From positions 1 through 25,973 of the IMG/VR virus record IMGVR_UViG_3300048433_001311: a stretch of DNA of 25,973 nt; one strand, written 5' to 3'. The DNA comes from a virus. The position numbers and the translations under genes are program-made. Shown piece after piece: positions 12,237 to 25,973 of this stretch. The notes under the pieces were generated by a model. It worked only from the letters and a program-made list of their open reading frames with translations. It made no database searches and was not told the origin of the DNA. Within the stretch, counting starts at the first letter, position 1. The number at the start of each line of letters is the position of its first letter.

Positions 12237-12938
12237 ATGGCATTACCAAAACTAGATATACCGAAGTACCCTATTGAGGTACCTTCTCTTAATAAAACAG
12301 TTGATTTTAGACCGTTCCTTGTAAAGGAAGAAAAGGTTCTTATGATCGCTCAAGAAACACAAGATGACAGCAAGATCTTACCAATTATTAAAGATATTGT
12401 AAAAGCATGTTCTTTTGAAAAGCTCGATCCAAACGATTGTACTGCATCAGACCTTGAATTTATTTTCCTTAAGCTGAGAGCAAAAAGCGTAGGAGAAACC
12501 GTAACTGTGCGCATTAAATGTGAAAAGTGCGACGAATATGCAAATGTTAAAATTAACCTTGAAGATATTAAGATATCTGAGGTTAACGATGTTAGTAACA
12601 CAATTGAAATTACTGATTCAATCGGAATCGTATTAAAAAGTTTATCATTAAGAGATGCAGAAAAGATCGATGATAAAAGTCCTGAAAAGGCGTTTAATCA
12701 AACAATCATATATTCGATCGAATCTATCTACGATGCAGATAGTGTATATCCTGCAAGTGAATCAACTGAAAAAGAATTAATTGAATTTGTTGATTCATTA
12801 TCACATTCACATCTCGAAAAAATTCAAAAGTATATCCAAAATATTCCAAAGCTACAATATACTGCTAAATTTAAATGTGCAGAATGTGGTCATGATAATG
12901 AGATTGTATTAGAGGGAATTGATTCTTTTTTCTCATAA
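12237..12938 (+). CDS. 26: Baseplate hub assembly protein gp26
   Basis: 233 residues (T4 gp26 has 208). It starts 'MALPKLDIPKYPIEVPSLNK' and contains 'VDFRPFLVKEEKVLMIAQET', the signature of the T4 gp26-type baseplate family. Two CxxC pairs (C95/C98 and C214/C217) suggest a zinc ribbon. In T4, gp26 acts with gp51 in hub assembly. The position directly before the tape measure parallels the tail-assembly chaperone of siphophages (lambda gpG). The last codons contain a heptanucleotide slippery site, so a share of ribosomes may shift into the gp51-like frame before the TAA at 12936. There is no evident Shine-Dalgarno. Confidence 0.92.
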   Translation: MALPKLDIPKYPIEVPSLNKTVDFRPFLVKEEKVLMIAQETQDDSKILPIIKDIVKACSFEKLDPNDCTASDLEFIFLKLRAKSVGETVTVRIKCEKCDEYANVKINLEDIKISEVNDVSNTIEITDSIGIVLKSLSLRDAEKIDDKSPEKAFNQTIIYSIESIYDADSVYPASESTEKELIEFVDSLSHSHLEKIQKYIQNIPKLQYTAKFKCAECGHDNEIVLEGIDSFFS

Positions 12939-16736: not shown

Positions 16737-17654
16737 TTAGCCTTGTTGAGCTAACTTGGCAAAATAGTCAAGTGTGTCACCATCATCTTCTGTATCTAGG
16801 CTTACATTAGTGTCTTCCTGAGGAACATCTACTTTAGCAGCAGGTGCATCGACTCGTGGTGGAAGTGTCTCGTTAAGCTCGACTTGTGTATCTGTCGAAA
16901 ATGTATCTGCTACAGTTTCTTCACCGAGGACCTCATATAATTTCTTCTTTAGGTCAGCGTAAGACTTATAGTTGTCTTGGCTAACAAACTCATTCAAGCT
17001 ATGAAGAGTATTATATACAGACTCGAGCTTCGCTTCGTCTCCTTCGAATAGTTCAGAAGAACCTTCGAATTCAGACTTATCATAATTACGATAGCCTTCG
17101 AAGTTACGAATTTTCAGCTTGAAGTTAGCACCGCCCCAAAAATCAAATGGGTTAACAGGCTTTTCATCTTGAAACTGTGGTTGCATAACATCCATTACCT
17201 TATCCATGATCTTCTTACCATACTTGTAAAGGAAAACTTTTCCTTCATTTTCAGGGTTAGCAGAGTCAGAGATAACGAGGATATTAGAGACGTGATGAAG
17301 GCGACGCTTACGCATACGTGCAAGCTCTTTATCTTCTTCACGACCTGTGTTCCACAGTTGTGTATTCATTTCACTTACAGGATCGGTTTGACCAATCGAT
17401 GTAAGAGAATTTTCGATATACCAGCGACCAGTTGGACCTTTAAATCCATGATCCCAGTACTTAATCCACGGGAGGTCTTCACCTTCAGGGGAGGGTAAGA
17501 AGCGAATAACGGCATAACCATTACCTGCTTTATCGACGGTTGGTGCCCAGAATCGATCATCACCGTATGATTTCTTTTCGGTGTCTTTAGAAGCTGCATT
17601 AATGAGCTTATCGATTGCTGATGCACGGTTTTGTTTTAGGTTCGCGAACGACAT
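16737..17654 (-). CDS. 32: Single-stranded DNA-binding protein gp32
   Basis: 305 residues (T4 gp32 has 301). The N-terminal basic LAST-type segment ('MSFANLKQNRASAIDKLINA') supports cooperativity. The core ('GYAVIRFLPSPEGEDLPWIK', 'YWDHGFKGPTGRWYIENSLT') is the gp32 OB-fold, and the acidic tail (EDTNVSLDTEDDGDTLDYF) recruits replication partners such as gp59. T4's zinc ligands (CPVC) are replaced: the segment reads DPVSEMN, so the zinc is absent, as I recall for marine T4-like gp32. It protects ssDNA in replication, repair and recombination. It follows gp59 (34 nt) and ends at a strong terminator. The leader before ATG is A/T-only and has no Shine-Dalgarno, which fits gp32-type translational autoregulation. 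Confidence 0.96.
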   Translation of the reverse strand: MSFANLKQNRASAIDKLINAASKDTEKKSYGDDRFWAPTVDKAGNGYAVIRFLPSPEGEDLPWIKYWDHGFKGPTGRWYIENSLTSIGQTDPVSEMNTQLWNTGREEDKELARMRKRRLHHVSNILVISDSANPENEGKVFLYKYGKKIMDKVMDVMQPQFQDEKPVNPFDFWGGANFKLKIRNFEGYRNYDKSEFEGSSELFEGDEAKLESVYNTLHSLNEFVSQDNYKSYADLKKKLYEVLGEETVADTFSTDTQVELNETLPPRVDAPAAKVDVPQEDTNVSLDTEDDGDTLDYFAKLAQQG

Positions 17655-20061: not shown

Positions 20062-20484
20062 TTAGCGTACGCGTACTCTGCGTGTAATTGTTTTGTAGTA
20101 GCCTGCGCGAACAACGAAAGGATTTCCGTATGCATCGTAATTGTAGATAGGTTGTACCCACACTTGTTCGTAAACAGTTGTGTAAACTGGATGATGAGGA
20201 ATCGGTGACAATATACGATGACCTTGATGTATTCCACCATGATGTACACCGCGTGAATGACCGTATTGGCCACGACGATTTAAAACGCCTGAACTAATGC
20301 CTGTGACAGCTCCAATAAGAGCTCCAGTTTCGCTGTCTCCACTGCCAGTATTGTTACCAATAATAGCTCCGATAATTCCGCCTACAATGCCATCTCGAAG
20401 ACCACTGTCTATATGAGGATTAGCATGAGTTGAAGATGCGAGCAATGCTGCAGCTCCAATGATTGTGATTATTTTTTTATTCAT
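20062..20484 (-). CDS. Secreted glycine-zipper protein (140 aa)
   Basis: 140 residues with a Sec signal peptide ('MNKKIITIIGAAALLASSTH', cleavage likely after THA at ~21). A glycine-zipper 2TM-like segment follows ('GIVGGIIGAIIGNNTGSGDS', 'TGALIGAVTGISSGVL', ~32-67), then a His/Gly-rich and a C-terminal beta-prone part ('YEQVWVQPIYNYDAYGNPFV') ending in basic residues. Such proteins sit in the bacterial periplasm or outer membrane. In a phage it may alter the envelope or block superinfection; that is inference. It has both a sigma70-like promoter and a late-type octamer 5 nt before the ATG, suggesting expression throughout infection. Confidence 0.85.
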   Translation of the reverse strand: MNKKIITIIGAAALLASSTHANPHIDSGLRDGIVGGIIGAIIGNNTGSGDSETGALIGAVTGISSGVLNRRGQYGHSRGVHHGGIHQGHRILSPIPHHPVYTTVYEQVWVQPIYNYDAYGNPFVVRAGYYKTITRRVRVR

Positions 20485-21016: not shown

Positions 21017-21024
21017 TATAAATA
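21017..21024 (+). promoter_or_regulatory. T4-type late promoter (TATAAATA) for the GH16 gene
   Basis: TATAAATA ends 5 nt before ATG 21030. An earlier in-frame ATG (21024) overlaps the octamer and would not be fully transcribed, so 21030 is preferred. Confidence 0.7.
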
Positions 21025-21029
21025 TGATA

Positions 21030-22529
21030 ATGATAAGTGATGAGATAAAATACCAATTGGTCGCTCAAGATCGTGGTACTGGGGATTTGGGCGAAGTAGG
21101 TTCATGCGAAGAAATCAATTCTACGTGTGATTGGTCAGAAAAAAATACTGATGCTGCGAGCTATGGAACTTCTACGGTTATAGGTTGCACGTATATTTCA
21201 TCAGATGCGAATGATCCATCAATTATAACCGAAGCTTCTACAACAAATCTCTCTATTACTGGAGAATATGGCTTAGCAACCTTTAACCAAGTTTCTTACA
21301 AATTTAAGGACATCAACCCACCATACGAACTTTTTACTGGAAGTGGTTGGCCTCCACCATTCAAGACCAGACCTCCAGCAGATAATCCTCATTTGCCAAA
21401 TTACCACATGTACGAATTGATCGAAGATCCTCGTACGAATCGAGATGTTACAACAGTAGTTGAGTTTCTTATTGAGTTTGATTTTTCATCTATCGCCACT
21501 CCTCCTACTTCTATTGCACCGAGTGCTTCTACTTATAGCTTATATGTTGATAGTGTAAATGAAAAGGCATACAGAAAGGATAGAATCTCATTTATTCACA
21601 CTGTAAGAAACTATAGTTATGTAAAATTTAGAACAGAATTATTAGATTCTTTATCAGGTGAGTTAATTGGTGGGCAAGATGCAGCTGCAGCAGTCGTAGA
21701 GGATGAGGATTCTACCCCAGTGGAAGGCGCGCTTTACGTTCCGGATGGGTATTCATATGTGTGGGGTGATCTTTTCAATGGTACTGAATTAGACTCGGCC
21801 AACTGGTTTGTTGGTATGCGTGATCCTACATCTGGAGATCTTATTCCTGGAGCTGCCGGTGATTACTTGTTAAATAACAAGTATTCTGGCTATGTCACCG
21901 AGGAAGACTCCTTTGTTTCTGACGGTTCCTTGATTCTGCGTAACCAACAAAGGAGTTATACTGGCACTAGTCCGGCAGGTAATTATGCGTACACATCTGG
22001 TTGGGTGTCATCTATGCATCGTCGCCATTTTAATAAGTGCTATATTGAAGTTCGTGCAAAATTTCCTTCAGGCGACAAGGTTTGGCCAGCGATTTGGATG
22101 GTTGCAGAAGATTTAGTCTGGGGGCCGGAGTGGGACCTATGGGAATATTTCGGCTACCGTGAGGATGTTGGCTATGACAATATGGGTATGCATCTGATGA
22201 CTGGCTATGAACAGCATGGTAATTTGTGGCCTAATCAGGATGCAAGACTTTGGGATGATCAATGGATTAAGCCATTCGACTCTCAGTACGATGCTGATGC
22301 ATGGCATATCTATGGTTGGGAATGGACCGATACTTTTGCACAATGGTCAATTGACGGCAATGTTGTCCACACTCTTCTAAAAAGTGACTCTCGCAGACCT
22401 TCTGCATGGCCAAATGAAGAGATGTATATCATCTTGAATAATGGTCTACGCACCGCTTCACCCAACACCACCACAACTTATCCCAATACACTTGAGATTG
22501 ATTGGATCGAAGTGTATCAGAAACCATAA
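21030..22529 (+). CDS. Virion-type glycoside hydrolase family 16 enzyme with phage N-terminal domain
   Basis: 499 residues. The C-terminal ~270 residues form a GH16 domain (beta-1,3/1,4-glucanase, agarase or carrageenase type): 'YSYVWGDLFNGTELDSANWF' at the start, the catalytic motif E367-W-D369-L-W-E372 (ExDxxE; first Glu nucleophile, second Glu acid/base), the aromatic 'WPAIWMVAEDLVWGPEW', and the end 'YPNTLEIDWIEVYQ'. The N-terminal ~230 residues have no signal peptide and match no enzyme; they are probably a virion-attachment domain. The downstream genes are structural. The GH16 half uses visibly more G+C-rich codons than the N-terminal half, suggesting recent capture. It would cleave host exopolysaccharide or algal glucan/galactan; the substrate cannot be read from sequence. 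Confidence 0.9.
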   Translation: MISDEIKYQLVAQDRGTGDLGEVGSCEEINSTCDWSEKNTDAASYGTSTVIGCTYISSDANDPSIITEASTTNLSITGEYGLATFNQVSYKFKDINPPYELFTGSGWPPPFKTRPPADNPHLPNYHMYELIEDPRTNRDVTTVVEFLIEFDFSSIATPPTSIAPSASTYSLYVDSVNEKAYRKDRISFIHTVRNYSYVKFRTELLDSLSGELIGGQDAAAAVVEDEDSTPVEGALYVPDGYSYVWGDLFNGTELDSANWFVGMRDPTSGDLIPGAAGDYLLNNKYSGYVTEEDSFVSDGSLILRNQQRSYTGTSPAGNYAYTSGWVSSMHRRHFNKCYIEVRAKFPSGDKVWPAIWMVAEDLVWGPEWDLWEYFGYREDVGYDNMGMHLMTGYEQHGNLWPNQDARLWDDQWIKPFDSQYDADAWHIYGWEWTDTFAQWSIDGNVVHTLLKSDSRRPSAWPNEEMYIILNNGLRTASPNTTTTYPNTLEIDWIEVYQKP

Positions 22530-23166: not shown

Positions 23167-23457
23167 ATGCCACCAGTAACAAGAATAGGAGATGCAGATG
23201 TAAGCCATTGCTCGGGTATGGTAAGAGCAGTAGGTAGTCCAAACGTGTTTACAAATTATATTCCAACATCACGACAAGGTGATGTGAATACAGGACACAA
23301 ATTACCAGCGCCTATATGTCCAAGCCATGCTCAGCCAATTGCTGTTGGTTCAAGCACAGTATTTGTTAATGGAAAAGGTTGTGGAAGAATAGGAGATGCT
23401 ATATCAGGTTGTACATCAGTAGCTGCAGGTTCGCCTAACGTTTTCGCCGGAGGTTAA
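23167..23457 (+). CDS. PAAR-domain spike-tip protein (gp5.4-like)
   Basis: 96 residues, the length of T4 gp5.4 (97). It is a full PAAR-motif protein: 'MPPVTRIGDADVSHCSGMVR', 'GSPNVFTNYIPTSRQGDVNT', 'GSSTVFVNGKGCGRIGDAIS' and 'AAGSPNVFAGG'. The His/Cys positions (H14, C15; C56, H59; C77, C86 region) supply the metal site at the cone tip. PAAR proteins cap the gp5/VgrG needle and sharpen it for membrane piercing. It is separated from gp5 by the rest of the tail genes, but follows the GH16 and 209-aa genes in one unit. Confidence 0.93.
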   Translation: MPPVTRIGDADVSHCSGMVRAVGSPNVFTNYIPTSRQGDVNTGHKLPAPICPSHAQPIAVGSSTVFVNGKGCGRIGDAISGCTSVAAGSPNVFAGG

Positions 23458-24011: not shown

Positions 24012-25163
24012 TTAGAACTTTAATCTATAACCGACAAACACTTTGTTCTTAAAGACATCAGCATCTTTATTTAGTAGATGCAAGCCTTGATAGCCAAGTT
24101 CGGCATAATGATTCTCATTGTATTTCCAAGCAAACGTGATGCTCGAAACAAAGACTTCTTCTTCACGTTCTAATCCAATGTTATAGCGATTACCAATGTC
24201 TTTATAAGATGTCAGAAGGTGTGCAGCCATAGCACTCACATCGAGTTTTGGTGTGATTGGATATTTAACCATAAGAGATGTTTTTAAATTCTCTTTCATA
24301 TTCCAATAAGCTACAGACGAATCCATTACTTCGTATGTGCTATTTAGGCCAATCACTGTACCTCTTTCAGTGAAGTAAGTTATATTGGCTCCATAAGTCG
24401 GCACAGAGTATTCAGTCAGTGTACCGTATTGATCTTCGATCAACGCATCGATAATACCATAATTGAATTTTATGATAGTTGAAGGATTCATGACATACGA
24501 GAACTGAGCATAATACGTATCAGTATCAATCGCTCCACGAGATCCACTATAGTCCAATAACGATTTTTTACCAACAAGTTCTAATATAAAACGTTTACCG
24601 AGGATTTGCTCAGCGCTAAACGTAAACGTGTCTTTAGTAAAATCTCCGTTGGTTAGTTCATCACCACTTCCTACAGGCAAGTTTTCAGACCAGCGTTTGA
24701 TATAACTTTCATATCCGCCTTTGAGTTTTAAGAGATATCGAGGTTGCCATGTTAGCATATACGAACTCTTATTCATAAAGTACGTTACATCAATATCGTC
24801 ATCAATATCGCTTGGTTCTCTTTCTGAATGAGAGAATGAGTTAGCAGAATCAAGTGTAAGCTTTGGTCCAAACTGATAAGTGCTCTTAATGCCAATGTTA
24901 CCAAACACCAACGTCTTACTGTCAACAGCCCTGTGTCTTATTTCTGGTTGTGCTTTAAGATCTATTAGATCTCGAAAGAACTTACCATCGATTCCTAGTG
25001 ATTGGCTATAGTAGAAGGTTGATGTTTGGCCGGACGTACCAGCCGCCCGCATAAAAACATTGTCATCAAAAAAGATTCGACTAAACGAAGTAAAGTTAAG
25101 ACCTCCTAAGCCATACGCTATAGATGTTACCACTAACAATAATGTACATAACAAAAATCTCAT
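24012..25163 (-). CDS. Outer-membrane beta-barrel protein encoded by the phage
   Basis: 383 residues. A signal peptide ('MRFLLCTLLLVVTSIAYG', cleavage near 18) is followed by alternating aromatic/polar beta strands all along the chain and a C-terminal 'VFVGYRLKF', whose final Phe is the outer-membrane assembly signal. It resembles the putative beta-barrel/EpsL-type outer-membrane proteins near exopolysaccharide and exosortase loci, but that is style rather than a firm match. It starts 3 nt after the PEP-CTERM gene, so the two are co-translated. A phage gene for an outer-membrane protein could block the receptor, alter EPS export or change permeability; all of these are inference. Confidence 0.85.
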   Translation of the reverse strand: MRFLLCTLLLVVTSIAYGLGGLNFTSFSRIFFDDNVFMRAAGTSGQTSTFYYSQSLGIDGKFFRDLIDLKAQPEIRHRAVDSKTLVFGNIGIKSTYQFGPKLTLDSANSFSHSEREPSDIDDDIDVTYFMNKSSYMLTWQPRYLLKLKGGYESYIKRWSENLPVGSGDELTNGDFTKDTFTFSAEQILGKRFILELVGKKSLLDYSGSRGAIDTDTYYAQFSYVMNPSTIIKFNYGIIDALIEDQYGTLTEYSVPTYGANITYFTERGTVIGLNSTYEVMDSSVAYWNMKENLKTSLMVKYPITPKLDVSAMAAHLLTSYKDIGNRYNIGLEREEEVFVSSITFAWKYNENHYAELGYQGLHLLNKDADVFKNKVFVGYRLKF

Positions 25164-25166
25164 AAT

Positions 25167-25835
25167 TTAATCCGTTCTACGTTTCGTTGCTACATATAGA
25201 AATAATAACCAACCTAGTATTAACGCATAGGTTGATGGTTCAGGCACTGTACTAAAATATAGTTGACTTGGTCCATTTATTTCAATATCCATTGAGCCAA
25301 GCGCATCAGCTTGAAAGGAAGTAAATACCACTAAATATTCTTTTTCTTCTAAGTCAAATAGACCGTCAAACGCACCTTCGCCCGTACCAGTTCCTTGACC
25401 GCTATTAAGACTTTGGCCTCCACCAAATCCAAATGTTGATGATGAGTTAAAGATATCTGGTATATTAGTTATAACATTGCTTAAATCAAAATCGTCAGTA
25501 TCATACAACAATACTTGTGTATCGATTGTCGAACCATTTGATCCTTGCAATGAACTTGAGTAATTAGAAAAACGAAAATCATTACCTGCGCTATCAGGTG
25601 TCATGTATATGTACTCGTAATATGTACGGACTGTACTATTTTCTGCACCATTCTGTGGAGGCGCATTCTCTGATACTTCCGCGCCGCTAAAACCTTCAAT
25701 ATATTGGTCATCTAGAACGACATCTATATCATAGTAAGAATAGTTGGGGGTTGTACCAGTGAGTGGTCCTAGTATGCTAATACTAGCGAATGCCGGAGTG
25801 GCCATTAATAAAAATAGTGTTAACCATTTATACAT
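25167..25835 (-). CDS. PEP-CTERM exosortase-substrate protein encoded by the phage
   Basis: 222 residues with all three parts of a PEP-CTERM protein: Sec signal peptide ('MYKWLTLFLLMATPAFA', cleavage ~17), a Ser/Asn/Gly-rich beta-prone exported domain without Cys, and a C-terminal sorting signal. The signal starts at V197 with VPEPSTYALILG, continues as a hydrophobic helix and ends with KRR. Exosortase cuts such proteins at PEP and releases them to the surface or EPS matrix. No exosortase is in the window, so the host enzyme must be used. It is preceded by an AGGA ribosome site and a small membrane ORF and followed by the beta-barrel gene. The start ATG 25835 gives a correct signal peptide. 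Confidence 0.93.
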   Translation of the reverse strand: MYKWLTLFLLMATPAFASISILGPLTGTTPNYSYYDIDVVLDDQYIEGFSGAEVSENAPPQNGAENSTVRTYYEYIYMTPDSAGNDFRFSNYSSSLQGSNGSTIDTQVLLYDTDDFDLSNVITNIPDIFNSSSTFGFGGGQSLNSGQGTGTGEGAFDGLFDLEEKEYLVVFTSFQADALGSMDIEINGPSQLYFSTVPEPSTYALILGWLLFLYVATKRRTD

Positions 25836-25838
25836 GAC

Positions 25839-25973
25839 TTAAATTCCTAATCCGTGATTGCAAACTCCAGAGCAAAGATGGTGTGTAGTTGCTGTAGTAG
25901 CTGCTGCTTCTACTTCTTCGCCACCGATAACACCGAGCATATTAAGTACGATAAGTACGACTACAATGCCGAC
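25839..25973 (-). CDS. Small membrane protein, 5' part outside the window
   Basis: The only open minus frame at the right edge encodes 44 residues ending at TAA 25839-25841. It begins in a hydrophobic helix (VGIVVVLIVLNMLGVIGG) followed by 'EEVEAAATTATTHHLCSGVC' and 'NHGLGI'. An internal ATG exists at about 25938-25940, but the hydrophobic stretch suggests that the gene starts beyond the edge. It ends 3 nt before the PEP-CTERM ATG and is probably its operon partner. No family is recognised. Confidence 0.55.
   Translation of the reverse strand, partial: VGIVVVLIVLNMLGVIGGEEVEAAATTATTHHLCSGVCNHGLGI

Follow-up and report, generated by a model that had tools for sequence, protein, structure and literature searches.

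The small outer-membrane lipoproteins Llp of phage T5 and Cor of N15-like phages block adsorption at the cell surface, and we know of no adsorption-blocking phage protein of this kind that bears an exosortase sorting signal. Descriptions of exosortase sorting have so far placed it in bacteria and linked it to exopolysaccharide, and a literature search, outside whose scope most subscription journals lay, found no paper on phage PEP-CTERM proteins. The bacterial PEP-CTERM proteins have a reported compositional signature, being poor in cysteine and basic residues and rich in threonine, serine and asparagine (Haft et al., PMC1569441). Here we analyse a 25,973-nucleotide stretch of viral DNA (IMG/VR record IMGVR_UViG_3300048433_001311, positions 1 to 25,973; hereafter the window), in one end of which a PEP-CTERM exosortase substrate had been predicted from the letters alone. 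The predicted ORF is indeed present on the minus strand and encodes 222 amino acids with a signal peptide, sorting motif, helix and KRR tail; the relevant features of the window are as follows.

25167-25835, minus strand: gene for the PEP-CTERM protein (222 aa), present at the same slot on more than 20 other viral contigs
25782-25835, minus strand: predicted signal peptide, residues 1-18, AFA/S cleavage, without a lipobox cysteine (sequence inspection and hydropathy scan)
25248-25781, minus strand: exchangeable ectodomain, residues 19-196, predicted calpain-C2L/PPC-like beta-sandwich (fold, cassette exchange, dN/dS)
25176-25247, minus strand: PEP-CTERM sorting domain of PEP motif, hydrophobic helix and basic tail (TIGR02595 18.9 bits, cut-off 16)
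24012-25163, minus strand: outer-membrane beta-barrel protein, 383 aa, the usual partner (weak BBP2_2 match; 86% mean column identity among 13 relatives)
25839-25973, minus strand: final part of a gene for a small membrane peptide, in the same operon and truncated where the contig stops (comparable to L002:3876-4013)
23167-23457, plus strand: PAAR spike protein, a conserved neighbour past the barrel (Pfam PF05488, 9.6e-11; synteny)
21024-22529, plus strand: fibre-like protein with a C-terminal glycosyl hydrolase 16 (GH16) domain (PF00722, 1e-10; N-terminal part syntenic)
16737-17654: gp32, a T4-like gene
12237-12938: baseplate hub, a T4-like gene

The protein begins with MYKWLTLFLLMATPAFA/S and ends with VPEPSTYALILGWLLFLYVATKRRTD (translation of the 222-aa ORF), and comprises, in order, the signal peptide, a cysteine-free beta-sandwich, a VPEP motif, a hydrophobic helix and the KRR tail. 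In line with the original prediction, the C-terminal tail is recognised by a PEP-CTERM model, TIGR02595, which scores 18.9 bits at the domain level (25176-25247), above its cut-off of 16, and 14.9 bits, below that cut-off, over the whole protein. The Pfam model PF07589 remains sub-threshold (14.7 vs 20.7), a model that recognises just 22% of TIGR02595 members (Haft et al. 2006, PMC1569441). The TIGR02595 cut-off is exceeded in 19 of the 24 virus records of the window's group, and in three of the other five the sequence ends inside or before the tail. In all 24 related proteins inspected the motif and the hydrophobic helix are present, the helix being followed by two or more basic residues; none of the 24 has a cysteine, and hence a lipobox, in its first 35 residues. 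A rule-based tail test applied to the window and a 141-kb relative (contig IMGVR_UViG_3300020469_005214) was passed by three of 163 ORFs, all three of them PEP genes. In composition the ectodomains show 2.2% lysine plus arginine (background 11.3%), no cysteine, 10.0% threonine (background 6.0%) and 9.6% serine (background 8.1%), with no enrichment in asparagine (5.9% vs 6.1%). We regard this as almost certainly a genuine phage PEP-CTERM gene.

Searches with the barrel protein recovered 22 viral loci, 20 of which display a PEP-CTERM gene directly upstream, whereas the other two start within the barrel gene or right where it begins. One contig (L011) reproduces the gene order of the window, i.e. 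PEP, barrel, PAAR, fibre, p400, helicase loader and gp32, and PEP genes also occur in a similar slot with no adjoining barrel (L076, L078, L080, L082 and L084) or as two tandem copies (L033 and G119). Among 112 Porticoccaceae and 369 gammaproteobacterial genomes searched, no bacterial relative of either the PEP protein or the barrel was detected, the sole exception being L033, a phage contig in one metagenome-assembled genome (MAG); on this ground we rejected recent capture from a bacterium. INPHARED phages gave no match to the PEP protein, the barrel or the tail. A different small PEP-CTERM protein of 115 aa, with the tail VPEPSTYALFAGMIGLGYAVYRRKFLTK, occurs on five contigs of 29-73 kb filed in the viral collection (L130, L131, L134, L136 and L147), and further PEP-CTERM tails lie on unrelated contigs of 9-103 kb filed there (L140:641-1429, L142, L132 and L137). 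The tail scan additionally retrieved a pentapeptide-repeat PEP-CTERM protein on L085, a contig filed among the viral ones; its genes resemble, by eye, those for relaxase, integrase and recombinase, and it is probably an integrative element instead of a phage.

Besides gp32 and the baseplate hub the window encodes a T4-like baseplate wedge, tail tube, head closure protein, DNA end protector and helicase loader, and the gp32s closest to its own (52-54%) belong to phage C48C1, Pelagibacter phage HTVC008M and cyanomyoviruses. The distance of about 2 kb to T4-like tail-type genes given in the original prediction is right, these being the PAAR gene and the gene for the GH16-bearing protein (23167-23457 and 21024-22529). 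The latter protein is probably a virion-borne polysaccharide depolymerase, and the GH16 and PAAR/fibre genes adjoining the PEP locus suggest a polysaccharide-coated host. The barrel gene, on which the original prediction was silent, directly follows the PEP gene after a gap of three bases; its product matches PF10082 (BBP2_2) weakly, at 15.4 bits against a gathering cut-off of 23.7 (best relative E 3.7e-4), profile searches found no EpsL match (TIGR03014), a PDB sequence search with it gave no meaningful match and its predicted structure (pLDDT 36.7) is too poor for use. Several other features of this region deserve mention. The GH16 domain of the fibre-like protein has an intact-looking E-W-D-L-W-E active-site motif, and relatives share its N-terminal part without GH16. 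A secreted glycine-zipper protein (Rick_17kDa_Anti-like; window 20062-20484, minus strand, and L083:3941-4348) is conserved in these phages and adjoins wall-hydrolase genes. A small membrane protein at the far side of the slot looks holin-like by eye and matches no family, and we therefore do not call it a holin.

Two conserved products are encoded immediately before the PEP gene (L004:6013-7464, L014:1278-2764 and L033:450-2255): a strongly acidic protein rich in Ser and Glu, and a membrane peptide of 57-58 aa, neither of which matched a known family. Judged by the barrel, L044 and L060 represent the two lineages nearest to the window; in both, the octamer TATAAATA precedes the operon's first gene by 22-25 nt, at what we take to be the position of a T4-type late promoter. 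This octamer is absent upstream of the operon in several lineages. The same octamer precedes several structural genes in the window, where its total of 8 occurrences against 3.8 expected is a modest enrichment. Its position in L044 and L060 and its presence before structural genes make late expression of the PEP operon likely.

The most distinctive behaviour of this family lies in its ectodomain. At least five ectodomain types occur with the same kind of PEP tail; a type other than the window's shows a weak match to the carbohydrate-binding CBM_4_9 family, and a CBM-like type is seen at eight loci. Between L079 and L027 nucleotide identity is about 93% over the stretch that begins with the signal peptide and stops just short of the PEP tail, and about 50% on either side, their barrels being 46% identical; likewise, the window and L003 are about 95% identical within the ectodomain and 45-55% at the signal peptide and tail. 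The reverse pattern is seen between L028 and L027, with about 40% inside the ectodomain and about 90% for tail and barrel. Synonymous divergence tells the same story: between the window and L003 the ectodomain has a dS of 0.20 and the barrel one of 1.93, and between the window and L005 the ectodomain stands at 0.74 and the tail at 0. In L082 a partial gp32 that is 97% identical to that of the window accompanies an ectodomain of the CBM-like type and no barrel. The exchanged stretch is bordered by the signal peptide on one side and the PEP tail on the other, a pattern in which, as read from these alignments, the ectodomain is a mobile cassette swapped between related phages while the targeting signals are kept. 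Within the window's type dN/dS of the ectodomain is 0.135, and the protein is therefore under purifying selection. The ectodomain model (pLDDT 68.6) resembles the calpain C2L and PPC/collagen-binding beta-sandwiches (Z 8.0-9.8), and as the best Foldseek E-value is merely 1.4e-3 we treat this as a fold resemblance and not as a family assignment. That related viruses exchange this domain suggests a function that evolves rapidly on the surface of the host cell.

Searches of eight phage records, including one of 141 kb, recovered no exosortase, so a host enzyme would be needed if the sorting signal is used. This is consistent with the original prediction that the phage would employ the host exosortase, and we consider processing of the phage protein by the host enzyme probable. 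The only genome link for the window's phage group is L033, the phage contig binned in a Porticoccaceae MAG (G001). This MAG encodes one exosortase (contig C82, L034), which is most like XrtC of the VPDSG class and is flanked by an EpsL-like barrel and a PrsK-like kinase; outside the phage contig, the MAG has no match to TIGR02595. An exosortase is present in 30 of 80 genomes of the family. However, the phage tails (PEPSTYAL..G..AFLYVAIKRR) differ in style from those of Porticoccaceae (PEPxxLALLGLGLAGLGFxRKKK), and we therefore do not trust the binning as host evidence. A tail search of plasmids found nothing, the window contains no tRNAs, and the tRNAs of G119 (Lys, Glu and Arg) are uninformative on the host.

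In the model that we propose, the late genes of one lineage of marine T4-like phages include, at a constant slot, a gene for a secreted PEP-CTERM protein. The PEP gene would be co-transcribed late in infection with the acidic protein, the small membrane peptide and usually the outer-membrane barrel; Sec would export its product, which the C-terminal helix would anchor in the inner membrane, whereupon the host exosortase would cleave it at the PEP motif and pass it to the outer surface or the EPS layer, as it would a host PEP-CTERM protein. There the beta-sandwich may bind and mask a host glycan or receptor, which would spare released progeny from re-adsorbing to kin or debris and would shut out other phages, and the swapping of ectodomains between phages would follow from the variation of surface chemistry among hosts. 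We favour this chain as a whole only tentatively, and hold the role in adsorption or masking, taken by itself, to be a plausible but similarly provisional suggestion. What argues for it most strongly is that phages swap an ectodomain that is intact and under selection while the targeting signals around it stay fixed; processing, location and binding would be its weakest links. As to the roles put forward in the original prediction, probable late expression and ectodomain exchange fit masking of a receptor or glycan and prevention of re-adsorption better than early superinfection exclusion, and EPS remodelling by the PEP protein itself is unsupported, no catalytic domain having been found. It is also conceivable, if rather doubtful, that the host exosortase pathway has been domesticated as a phage display route, in which the conserved signal peptide and PEP tail would frame a recombination hot spot, the unrelated ectodomain types swapped there would constitute a host-matched mask and a dedicated phage barrel would aid export.

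The main rival is a lysis protein, i.e. a beta-rich domain in the periplasm, anchored by a C-terminal membrane helix, which, with or without the barrel, helps to break the outer membrane in the manner of a unimolecular spanin. The beta-rich domain, the C-terminal helix and the lack of a periplasmic cysteine are features of such spanins (PMC6139136), a secreted wall hydrolase of the SleB or SLT type follows the slot in relatives, and the PEP operon is probably late. Nevertheless, no member of the 24 has an N-terminal cysteine, so that we rejected identity as a lipoprotein or unimolecular spanin, the PEP motif, needless for a spanin, is kept in all types, and exchange of ectodomains is unexpected for a lysis protein; we therefore judge this explanation unlikely. 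Slightly less probable still is that the displayed protein sticks infected cells together or to particles so that the phage meets new hosts: Zoogloea depends on PEP-CTERM proteins to form flocs (work cited in PMC9012009) and the tail region is weakly similar to the model of the floc protein PepA, but this match lies far under the cut-off of that model (18 vs 80 bits). A third alternative holds that the tail alone matters, as a decoy that keeps the host exosortase busy and leaves the EPS or surface layer weaker during infection, in keeping with a tail that stays constant while the ectodomain varies. The ectodomains evidently matter, since they remain intact, pass between phages as complete cassettes and evolve under purifying selection (dN/dS 0.135), and PEP genes additionally occur in tandem pairs, which makes a mere decoy improbable. 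Finally, an assembly chimera at about 24-26 kb, fusing host DNA to the phage contig, might be suspected from the location of the PEP gene at the extreme contig end, but is ruled out for practical purposes by the recurrence of the slot and its neighbours on many independent contigs, including the order shared with L011 as far as gp32, and by the lack of bacterial relatives beyond the MAG phage contig in the 112 Porticoccaceae and 369 gammaproteobacterial genomes.

A conserved and exchangeable phage cargo of the exosortase system would represent a new viral way to the outer surface of the Gram-negative cell, and would offer genetic handles both on the role of exosortase cargo at that surface and on the control of adsorption by marine lytic phages late in infection. 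Llp of T5 and Cor resemble the window protein in its proposed effect, as secreted phage proteins that block adsorption, but are small outer-membrane lipoproteins. The BBP2_2/EpsL outer-membrane barrels of exosortase loci (PF10082, TIGR03014) likewise adjoin a PEP-CTERM component; the phage barrel matches BBP2_2 weakly, is sub-threshold for PF10082 and has no EpsL match. With unimolecular spanins such as gp11 of phage T1 (PMC6139136) the phage protein has in common the beta-rich periplasmic domain, the C-terminal helix and the absence of periplasmic cysteine, and differs from them in having no lipobox, a PEP motif and an exchangeable ectodomain. PepA and other PEP-CTERM matrix proteins (NF033554, NF038126 and NF038129) match weakly over the tail and part of the beta-rich region, far under their family cut-offs, so that the phage protein is not a member of these families. 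The bacterial substrates of the PEP-CTERM/exosortase (EpsH/Xrt) system (TIGR02595; PMC1569441) share with it the signal peptide, the tripartite tail, the composition and a rapidly evolving ectodomain. Unlike these, the phage version is encoded by a lytic phage with no exosortase found on the records searched, its ectodomain is swapped between fixed targeting signals and a barrel gene is its usual partner. The observation behind the original prediction is confirmed and its interpretation in part supported; PEP-CTERM sorting being already known in bacteria, what is new here is the probable conversion of PEP-CTERM cargo into an exchangeable phage surface protein.
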